NCBI RefSeq assembly: GCF_003589925.1
Contig: NZ_CP032382.1
Location: forward strand, 5,146,001-5,210,000
DNA length: 64,000 bases
Source of the DNA: Chryseolinea soli
GTDB taxonomy: Bacteria; Bacteroidota; Bacteroidia; Cytophagales; Cyclobacteriaceae
Reading direction: 5' to 3'
Shown: positions 11,104 to 12,185 of the stretch, piece by piece
Numbering within the stretch: position 1 is the first letter of the stretch
Layout: each line of letters begins with the position of its first letter
Notes under the pieces: model-generated
The model's input: the letters and a program-made list of their open reading frames with translations, nothing else
What the model was told of the DNA's origin: nothing
The model's database searches: none
Position numbers and translations under genes: made by a program

Positions 11104-11568
11104 TCAGGTGAGGTTCAGACTCCTGTCCAGGCTCTCTTCCAACGATATCATGGTCTCCGTCCGTTCGATGCCTTCCACTTGCTGGATCTTGTCGTGTAAC
11201 ACCTGTTTGAGGTGATTGGTGTCCTTACAGTGGATCTTTGTGAACATGCTGTAGTTTCCGGTAGTATAATGGATGTTGGTGATCTCGGGAATGGCTTTGA
11301 GTTTGGCCATCACCTGGTCGTAGAGGGCGCTCTTCTGAAGGAAGATGCCAATGAAGGCCGTGATGTCGTAGCCCAGCTTGGCATAGTTCACTTTCAGGGT
11401 TGTTTTCTCGACAATACCGGCTTCTTCGAGCTTATTCATGCGGACGTGGACGGTGCCCCCGGAGACAAATGCTTTCTTGGCTACTTCCGTATAAGGCTTT
11501 TTGGCGTCTTGCATGAGGATTTCGAGGATCTTCAGGTCGACATTGTCAACTTTATAATTTTCGGCCAT
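11104..11568 (-). CDS. Lrp/AsnC-family transcriptional regulator
   Basis: This 154-residue protein has an N-terminal winged helix (VDLKILEILMQDAKKPYTEVA, about 9-29, then GTVHVRMNKLEEAGIV, about 38-53) and a C-terminal ligand-binding RAM domain (about 65-145, with YTTGNYSMFTKI). Lrp-type regulators respond to amino acids or related metabolites. The gene lies 109 nt upstream of sufB on the same strand and diverges from the tRNA-like RNA locus; its target is not known. The recognition helix reads SGGTVHVR, where Lrp has SxxxVxxR. Confidence 0.9.
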   Translation of the reverse strand: MAENYKVDNVDLKILEILMQDAKKPYTEVAKKAFVSGGTVHVRMNKLEEAGIVEKTTLKVNYAKLGYDITAFIGIFLQKSALYDQVMAKLKAIPEITNIHYTTGNYSMFTKIHCKDTNHLKQVLHDKIQQVEGIERTETMISLEESLDRSLNLT

Positions 11569-11643
11569 GTAAAATTTGAGTTTTGACTATAATTCAAAAA
11601 TATGAAATTAAATTAAAAAATATACAATTATTCAAATGTTTCA

Positions 11644-11675
11644 TTGTTTAGCATAGCAGCTTTTGCGTTACTTTG
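11644..11675 (+). promoter_or_regulatory. Candidate promoter of the tRNA-like RNA locus
   Basis: A TTG at 11644-11646 lies 21 nt before TTACTTTG (11668-11675), which matches the TAnnTTTG consensus at 7 of 8 positions. The site is about 50 nt upstream of the first tRNA-like copy, with no coding region between. Confidence 0.45.
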
Positions 11676-11725
11676 TTAAAGATTTTACAACGCACACACA
11701 TTTATCACACAACAAAAACACAACT

Positions 11726-11843
11726 TGTAGGGTGTTGAAATTTGGCAGACAAGCCCTCCGGTCTCGGGGGTGGGGACAACGGGATAAAGTCCAGCCTTTG
11801 GCGACCTAACTGCTCCGTGGAGGTTCGAACCCTCCCTCTACAG
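11726..11843 (+). ncRNA. tRNA-like RNA, copy 1 (class II, long variable arm, no U33)
   Basis: The 118-nt segment folds by eye like a class II (Leu-type) tRNA. The acceptor stem TGTAGGG pairs with CTCTACA (11836-11842, one G-U), followed by U8-G9. The D arm is TTG/CAA with GG in the loop. A 5-bp anticodon-like stem CCCTC/GGGGG (11754-11758, 11766-11770) closes the 7-nt loop CGGTCTC. The T arm is GGAGG-TTCGAAC-CCTCC (11819-11835). Two features are abnormal: position 33 is G instead of the near-invariant U, and the variable region is 48 nt, closed by GGGG/CTCC. CCA is not encoded. The loop position would give anticodon GTC, but decoding is doubtful. It could be a specialised tRNA-like RNA or a decayed tRNA-Leu; the T and acceptor arms look intact. 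Confidence 0.6.
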
Positions 11844-11875
11844 CAACCACACCGCACACACACACACAACAACAT

Positions 11876-12024
11876 TGTAGGGTGTTGAAATTGGCAGACA
11901 AGCCCTCCGGTCTCGGGGGTGGAGAGTACGGAAGAAAGTGTAAGCACCCTGATCCCAGTAACTACTACCAGGATCAGGTCTGGCACCTAACCGCTCCGTG
12001 GAGGTTCGACTCCTTCCTCTACAG
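11876..12024 (+). ncRNA. tRNA-like RNA, copy 2 (class II, 79-nt variable region)
   Basis: A 149-nt tandem paralogue of the preceding RNA, 32 nt downstream. Acceptor, D arm and anticodon-like arm are identical to copy 1 apart from one base in the D loop. The T arm GGAGG-TTCGACT-CCTTC still pairs, with a G-U. The variable arm closes with GGAG/CTCC, where copy 1 has GGGG/CTCC, so pairing is kept. Inside it is a perfect 8-bp hairpin, CCTGATCC/GGATCAGG. Both inserts share the stretches ACGGnAnAAAGT and ACCTAACnG. The CA-rich leader (CACACAACAA...) is also duplicated. The preserved stems suggest a working structured RNA rather than a random pseudogene. Confidence 0.6.
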
Positions 12025-12060
12025 CTAGCTCAGTTTAGGTTAATGAGTTATTCAGAGCTG

Positions 12061-12088
12061 CCCGTCCCGGTTTCGGGGCGGGTTTTTT
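12061..12088 (+). terminator. Intrinsic terminator of the tRNA-like RNA locus
   Basis: A 9-bp stem (12061-12069 with 12074-12082, CCCGTCCCG/CGGGGCGGG, one T-G pair) with a GTTT loop is followed directly by six T. It lies 36 nt after RNA copy 2. Confidence 0.88.
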
Positions 12089-12185
12089 ATTTTATTCCTT
12101 TCGCATATTCGCTATTGATTTGCTGGCAAACAATCGTTTGCTTTGAATCTGATAAGAAATTGAAGGATTTCCCATTTTTTAGTCC

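Follow-up and report, generated by a model that had tools for sequence, protein, structure and literature searches.

What function could be served by two tandem tRNA-shaped genes that a tRNA finder passes over and that lie beside the gene of an AsnC-type regulator? The question is raised by a stretch of 64,000 nucleotides from Chryseolinea soli (assembly GCF_003589925.1, contig NZ_CP032382.1, positions 5,146,001 to 5,210,000 of the forward strand), referred to as a whole as the window. An earlier interpretation made from the letters alone (the sequence-only reading) had described the pair as a possible new RNA family derived from tRNA-Leu that does not decode, or decodes unusually. This observation is confirmed and its interpretation is partly supported: the pair is part of a conserved RNA family, tRNA-shaped and found in Bacteroidota and in phages that infect them, with a Leu-like body and most likely without a decoding role. 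The interpretation was, however, incomplete in that it missed a link to asparagine. The family is not an orphan, as its acceptor end, its anticodon loop, the adjoining regulator and the distribution of genes across genomes point to the asparagine pathway of aspartyl-tRNA synthetase (AspRS) and the amidotransferase GatCAB. On balance, the two genes probably specify a carrier RNA for asparagine synthesis that derives from a tRNA and takes no part in decoding.

The pair escapes the models in common use. ARAGORN calls no tRNA in the window, nothing there reaches the gathering score of any Rfam 15 family, and no tRNA-family match is listed for positions 11600-12150 at expectation values (E) up to 10. 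RF00005, applied at E up to 0.001, recovers 48 tRNAs in the genome, with neither window copy among them. Similarly, neither ARAGORN nor RF00023 calls a tmRNA in the window; a substitute for a missing tmRNA is rejected, as the genome has a normal tmRNA elsewhere (117.7 bits). Relatives are nevertheless abundant. Blastn matches 43 of 59 relatives, and a covariance model (R1) built from 41 copies recovers both window copies where the sequence-only reading had placed them. Within the order to which the window belongs, this model detects the family, at E up to 1e-14, in 106 of 148 genomes (100 of the 127 good ones), and it also detects it in further orders of the same class. Of 247 genomes drawn from across the phylum, 23 have copies of at least 88 bits and one more (G048) has an arm-less copy of 68.5 bits; the next-best matches are 85-90 nt long, score at most 62.5 bits and are presumably ordinary tRNAs. 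Within the window's genome the gap is wide, with the copies at 120-127 bits versus 53.6 for a tRNA-Leu. Carriers among the stretches listed include Algoriphagus, Cyclobacterium, Hymenobacter, Pontibacter, Dyadobacter, Flammeovirga, Parachryseolinea and metagenome-assembled genomes of Saprospiraceae; the contig scan of named genomes yielded at least 119 stretches, 80 of them shown by name, and its counts are lower bounds. Among sequenced phages and plasmids, blastn found no copy, either in INPHARED with two queries or in PLSDB with one. No published description of the family was found in the literature searched, outside which most subscription journals lay, and this is not proof of novelty. What would be added is a widespread structured RNA family missed by ARAGORN and the Rfam models tried. 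As a separate observation, Flammeovirga pacifica carries five copies head to tail (L101:3685-4630, minus strand).

The decisive statistic for the structure is covariation, measured on an alignment fitted to the model. Across 85 distinct model-picked copies, 98.2% of the cells are paired over a 27-pair structure and both partners change in 18 of the 27 pairs; neither value is matched in any of 500 shuffles, and pairing in slid controls amounts to 51-60%. Compensated variation is seen in acceptor pairs 4-7, in two of the three D-stem pairs and in the anticodon-stem pair 30:40, which occurs as UG, UA, CG, GC and AU. Together with the spread of relatives and the lack of an Rfam 15 match, this bears out the proposal of a genuine RNA family. 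Free-energy z-scores are not significant, and minimum free energy (MFE) folding of four sequences was uninformative. Several details described earlier hold: in both window copies the acceptor, D arm and T arm (GTTCGA) resemble those of tRNA-Leu, the change from GGGG/CTCC to GGAG/CTCC preserves pairing, and the perfect 8-bp hairpin of copy 2 appears in its MFE fold. A tRNA with an intron that restores a normal anticodon loop is rejected, since the relatives show an uninterrupted 7-nt anticodon-type loop in the same register. With relatives abundant as well, neither outcome that the sequence-only reading had named as refuting it was observed. A 6-nt register of this loop is likewise unlikely, as full pairing of copies with GAGGG or GCGGG requires the 7-nt register.

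The variable arm, though long, follows a common plan. The earlier lengths of 48 and 79 nt for the two variable regions stand for copy 1 and become 80 nt for copy 2 on a recount from position 44 to 48. Of 221 distinct arms, 186 fit one architecture, in which base and inner stems of 4 and 3 bp lead through an internal loop (N-A(U/C/A)AAA / CUAA) to a hairpin; the first pair of this hairpin forms in 96% of cases versus 45% with shuffled partners, and UGAA replaces CUAA in 24 of the other 35. Arm length ranges from 36 to 112 nt (220 unmasked distinct arms). The large arm is dispensable in at least one natural case: a 79-nt copy in genome G048 (L309:101-179, minus strand) lacks it, with a fully compensated anticodon stem (CTAGC/GCTAG) and with the fixed positions described below. 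Palindromes of at least 8 nt follow the GACCAC motif in 22 of the 61 arms that have it (shuffled mean 3.4, maximum 11), all 22 in phage copies, and palindromes of at least 10 nt occur in 36 of 221 arms where 13.8 are expected, a mild enrichment. Dimerisation through palindromic hairpin loops may be possible; many cellular copies show no such palindromes.

Some positions of the family hardly vary. Among 298 scored copies, G2-C71, G73, U35, C36 and C38 are found in all, U1-A72 in 295 and the entire combination in 295, figures to be read in light of the scan pattern, which itself fixed positions 35, 36 and 38 and supplied much of the set (it is matched by 256 of the 300 distinct copies). The scoring excluded L180 and L135, which are truncated at contig ends, and L125, which contains masked bases. 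U1, A72, G73, C74, U35, C36 and C38 are also invariant in all 91 model-picked rows (85 distinct), a set that leans on a model built from earlier copies. The available part of a tRNA-identity review (PMC9976931) gives the aspartate identity set as G73, G34, U35, C36 and C38 and, for the amidation of Asp-tRNA, names U1-A72 as a positive element with G1-C72 and U20a as antideterminants. The fixed positions of the family comprise most of this identity set plus the GatCAB determinant, and the family can be viewed as a Leu-type body with Asp/GatCAB-type ends. As fixed positions lie at both ends, conservation sits where synthetases and amidotransferases look. The host's ordinary tRNA-Asp(GUC) carries G1-C72 and U20a (in our numbering); the D loop of the window copies, in which 20a was read, is GGCAGA, with A at the place so numbered. 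Host tRNA genes end at N73-C74, mostly without an encoded CCA, as do the two window RNAs.

The remainder of the anticodon-type loop is less constrained. G34 is present in 257 of the 298 copies, the others having A, C or U; U33 is present in 243, with G or C also occurring; and position 37 is a pyrimidine in 296 and a purine in 2. The loop CGGTCTC of the window copies does contain G33, as was noted previously, together with U37, but G33 does not hold as a trait of the family. On account of the pyrimidine at 37, the drift at 33 and 34 and the usually large arm, decoding on the ribosome appears unlikely. A replacement for a missing tRNA-Asp is rejected as well, given that the ordinary tRNA-Asp(GUC) is present.

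A further line of evidence comes from the distribution of the relevant enzymes. GatCAB was followed via GatB (profile TIGR00133), along with the asparaginyl- and glutaminyl-tRNA synthetases, AsnRS (TIGR00457) and GlnRS (TIGR00440). In the 148 order genomes, GatB matches in 129 (126 over the cut-off), and AsnRS exceeds its cut-off in 145 and GlnRS in 65. The window's genome encodes all three (GatB at 545 bits), and with both synthetases present GatCAB is not needed there for Asn- or Gln-tRNA. For the comparison, GatB was counted in the order at any match with E up to 0.001, fragments included; the RNA was counted at 88 bits or more in the class and at E up to 1e-14 in the order, where this admits the arm-less copy of G048 (68.5 bits) along with a small number of other low-scoring matches. 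Over the whole order, 104 genomes have both RNA and GatB, 2 the RNA alone, 25 GatB alone and 17 neither. In the 65 order genomes with GlnRS the corresponding numbers are 48, 2, 3 and 12, and in 51 genomes of the class outside the order 14, 0, 1 and 36 (14, 0, 3 and 34 if two weak GatB-like matches are admitted). Within two families of mixed state (13 genomes of the class outside the order), RNA and GatB change together. Further, E. coli-type AsnB was found, among the matches listed, in 0 of 46 genomes with the RNA versus 20 of 34 without it (80 examined), as judged by match shape with an NCBIfam check on three proteins from RNA-lacking and six from RNA-bearing genomes. Plain Fisher tests without tree correction give p = 1.2e-11 for the class (5.3e-10 with the weak matches), 3.4e-9 for the order, 9.2e-9 for its GlnRS-bearing genomes and 3.9e-10 for AsnB. 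According to the accessible text of PMC4206432, 68 genera have AsnRS, GlnRS and GatCAB, 18 of which, Bacteroidetes among them, lack an Asn synthetase; for genera with the three enzymes, Alperstein and colleagues propose there that asparagine is made on tRNA-Asn. Apart from this, second GatB-like proteins occur in open frames of about 1125 codons at G342:C6:121127-122509 and G326:C111:3191-4567.

The tandem genes sit between a divergent AsnC-type regulator gene and a terminator-like hairpin (see the table), and the former association recurs. An AsnC-type gene lies directly upstream and divergent in 57 of the 119 loci listed, at a mean distance of 150 bp, and homologues of the window regulator, 50-99% identical to it, occur in 59 of these loci. 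The regulator scores 170.9 bits against the NCBIfam AsnC model NF008384, which is below the cut-off of 227, and 87.4 against LrpA; its best solved relative is AsnC 2cg4 (129 bits). In E. coli, per the portion of PMC8707732 consulted, AsnC activates asnA and asparagine damps this activation. The sequence-only reading had also placed a promoter-like site and a strong terminator on either side of the pair. A sigma-70 scan of the window gives no promoter on the plus strand. Bacteroidota promoters, though, follow the consensus TAnnTTTG, and the candidate element TTACTTTG agrees with it at 7 of 8 positions; such an element is present within 200 nt upstream in 83 of 109 related loci versus 17.5 in base shuffles. 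The hairpin and T tract of the terminator are present, but terminator-like matches in the window are no commoner than in shuffles (1 versus a mean of 1.0).

These features allow a pathway to be outlined. Transcription of the RNA would start at a promoter of its own next to asnC, and the transcript would undergo tRNA-like processing and CCA addition. AspRS would then charge it with aspartate because of G73, U35, C36, C38 and mostly G34, and GatCAB would amidate Asp-RNA to Asn-RNA because of U1-A72 and the absence of U20a. The pyrimidine at 37, the drifting positions 33 and 34 and the usually bulky, structured arm would keep the RNA out of translation, and its aminoacyl forms would thus stay out of proteins. 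Asparagine would be released by hydrolysis or to some acceptor, which is the weakest step of the scheme, and regulation by AsnC could close the feedback. The arm-less 79-nt copy keeps the fixed positions and for this reason counts in favour of a carrier. A more specific version is advanced tentatively, at a little under an even chance: the RNA could be a dedicated cofactor with the sole role of a platform for AspRS and GatCAB in making asparagine, regulated by AsnC in place of a synthetase gene, and could constitute an auxiliary metabolic RNA gene in phages. Phages bearing it might, more speculatively, supplement the asparagine supply of the host.

The phage copies themselves come from IMG/VR. 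All 55 stretches carry one: 54 reach at least 74 bits, including one truncated at a contig end, and the remaining one is a fragment of 55.8 bits. ARAGORN reports another tRNA or tmRNA in the fetched stretch in 35 of the 55, with a single doubtful one in L176 and L184, and no tRNA gene in the fetched part of the other 20. Eight chosen proteins from four stretches match PHROGs families (terminase, endolysin, holin, exonuclease, helicases), and these matches support a phage origin of those four. The phage copies keep the fixed positions, except for A1-U72 in L176 and L184, and have variable arms of their own.

Could the same features be explained without a carrier? The determinants, the co-occurrence with GatB and the asnC neighbour would all equally be expected if the RNA bound AspRS, GatCAB or both as a scaffold, competitor or sensor regulating the asparagine branch, and a large structured arm, sometimes with palindromes, would suit a scaffold. 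The strictly kept G73-C74 end, as in chargeable tRNAs, exceeds what a scaffold needs, however, and the arm-less copy also counts against it; this possibility is considered rather unlikely. Less probable still is a tRNA that decodes GAN codons, either with Asp or, as programmed mistranslation, with Asn where Asp is encoded. The fixed U35 and C36, the prevalence of G34 and U33 and the many phage copies lying among tRNA and tmRNA genes would agree with it, whereas the near-universal pyrimidine 37, the G or C permitted at 33 and the A, C or U permitted at 34, the arms of 36-112 nt and the presence of an ordinary tRNA-Asp do not.

The phage copies also bring to mind a decoy or replacement for tRNAs cut by defence or toxin systems, which would account for carriage by phages and for the company of other tRNA or tmRNA genes in 35 stretches. 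Yet the RNA is present in 106 of the 148 order genomes, 20 phage stretches have no tRNA call within their fetched parts, and the links to GatB and asnC are left unexplained, so that a decoy is very improbable. A relic of a Ser- or Leu-accepting class II tRNA without a dedicated function is given equally little weight. The Leu-type D loop and variable-arm base would fit such an origin, as would G73, which is found in Ser tRNAs, but covariation and wide conservation argue against a relic, all four host Leu tRNAs found have A73, and neither Ser nor Leu identity explains the fixed U35, C36 and C38.

The asparagine-carrier proposal has to contend with several observations of its own. Two genomes (G368, G410) have the RNA without a GatB match. 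Conversely, 25 order genomes have GatB without the RNA; 22 of them lack GlnRS over the cut-off, and there GatCAB may serve Gln, while three (G334, G361 with GatB fragments only, and G413) possess GlnRS. G099 in the class also has GatB alone, as do most genomes outside the class. As GatB is common without the RNA there, GatB needs no RNA, and the claim is the converse one that the RNA needs GatB. Equally, G34 is not fixed across the family, the Fisher values above carry no tree correction, and about half of the 119 loci have no AsnC-type neighbour. An AsnC gene beside asnB was not found in 12 stretches from genomes without the RNA. Many RNA-bearing genomes encode long AsnB-like proteins over the TIGR01536 cut-off that might make asparagine; the six of them that were scanned score below the AsnB cut-off. 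An alternative is that the host has a non-discriminating AspRS, which would act on tRNA-Asn. The substrates of AspRS are class I tRNAs, and hence the large arm might hinder the enzyme. Finally, we know of no release step for asparagine from a carrier RNA.

Comparison with established systems places the proposed role in context. In tRNA-dependent asparagine synthesis, a non-discriminating AspRS and GatCAB act on tRNA-Asn; the proposed conversion of Asp-RNA to Asn-RNA by GatCAB via U1-A72 would be analogous, and the accompanying genes (AsnRS, GlnRS, GatCAB) are the same. The known carrier is, however, the decoding tRNA-Asn, whereas here a separate, non-decoding RNA would do the carrying, with an Asp-type loop (C36, C38) that a discriminating AspRS could charge. 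The locus also resembles the E. coli asnC-asnA locus, with an AsnC-type gene adjoining and divergent from a supposed asparagine-synthesis gene, except that the neighbour is an RNA gene rather than a synthetase gene and that control by AsnC is predicted. Relative to class II tRNA-Leu, the family shares the D loop, the T arm and the base of the variable arm (U44, stem and G-U48), but has G73 in place of A73 and U1-A72 in place of G1-C72, lacks a Leu anticodon and has a several-fold longer arm. tmRNA and viral tRNA-like structures are likewise tRNA mimics with non-decoding tasks, unlike which the family retains a full cloverleaf with an anticodon arm. In the staphylococcal cell-wall tRNA-Gly, a tRNA isoacceptor has been diverted from decoding to metabolism, though with another amino acid, pathway and architecture. 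Should the carrier role be true, a modern cell would be using RNA as a biosynthetic cofactor, with the Asp-type anticodon loop reused purely as an address for a synthetase, phages would carry an auxiliary metabolic gene made of RNA, and metabolic roles of tRNA outside decoding would become testable. It would also suggest an answer to why many bacteria with AsnRS and GlnRS keep GatCAB, a puzzle stated in the accessible part of PMC4206432.

Table. Features of the RNA locus in the window, and copies of a second unusual RNA family in phage stretches (named by stretch)
Feature	Position	Strand	Remarks
Copy 1 of the tRNA-like RNA, U1 to C74	11726..11844	+	U1 at 11726; R1 model 120.1 bits, covariance-model match 11726-11846
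Copy 2 of the tRNA-like RNA, U1 to C74	11876..12025	+	U1 at 11876; R1 model 126.8 bits, covariance-model match 11876-12027
Anticodon-type stem-loop, copy 1	11754..11770	+	CCCTC CGGTCTC GGGGG; U35 C36 U37 C38 at 11762-11765; pair 30:40 covaries
Expanded variable arm, copy 1	11772..11816	+	4-bp base and 3-bp inner stems, internal loop NAUAAA/CUAA, hairpin
3' acceptor strand, copy 1	11836..11844	+	CTCTACA, then G73 (11843), C74
3' acceptor end, copy 2	12020..12025	+	TACA, then G73 (12024), C74
AsnC-type regulator of the Lrp/AsnC family, 154 aa, divergent from the RNA genes	11104..11568	-	
Candidate Bacteroidota-type -7 element TTACTTTG	11668-11675	+	7/8 to TAnnTTTG; nearest such string in the window
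Intrinsic terminator-like hairpin	12060-12083	+	10-pair stem and T tract
Second phage family, L160	7680-7830, 6140-6262, 6475-6616	-	
Second phage family, L197	5062-5185, 5267-5412	-	
Second phage family, L162	4907-5052, 5866-5976	+	
Second phage family, L196 and L190	L196:3170-3301, L190:39-156	+	

Some further observations concern RNAs near or similar to the family. In seven phage copies (L155, L157, L161, L165, L171, L188, L204) the D loop has an extra hairpin-like insert, and in L161, L165, L166, L178, L188, L192 and L195 phage tmRNAs with long, related tag peptides (e.g. DVELSTMTFEDAMAFVGADYAVAA) share the stretch with the RNA. The window's genome itself contains a group of divergent tRNAs (L262, G000:C1 about 1707914-1710799), some with an unusual T loop GGATCGTGCCC, which perhaps belongs to a prophage. 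In the second phage family of the table the acceptor, D arm and T arm (AGTCAGGTGGCG...CCTGACTAC) are all Leu-like and an anticodon arm is not evident; its inner sequence mostly differs from copy to copy, and up to three copies are found per stretch.
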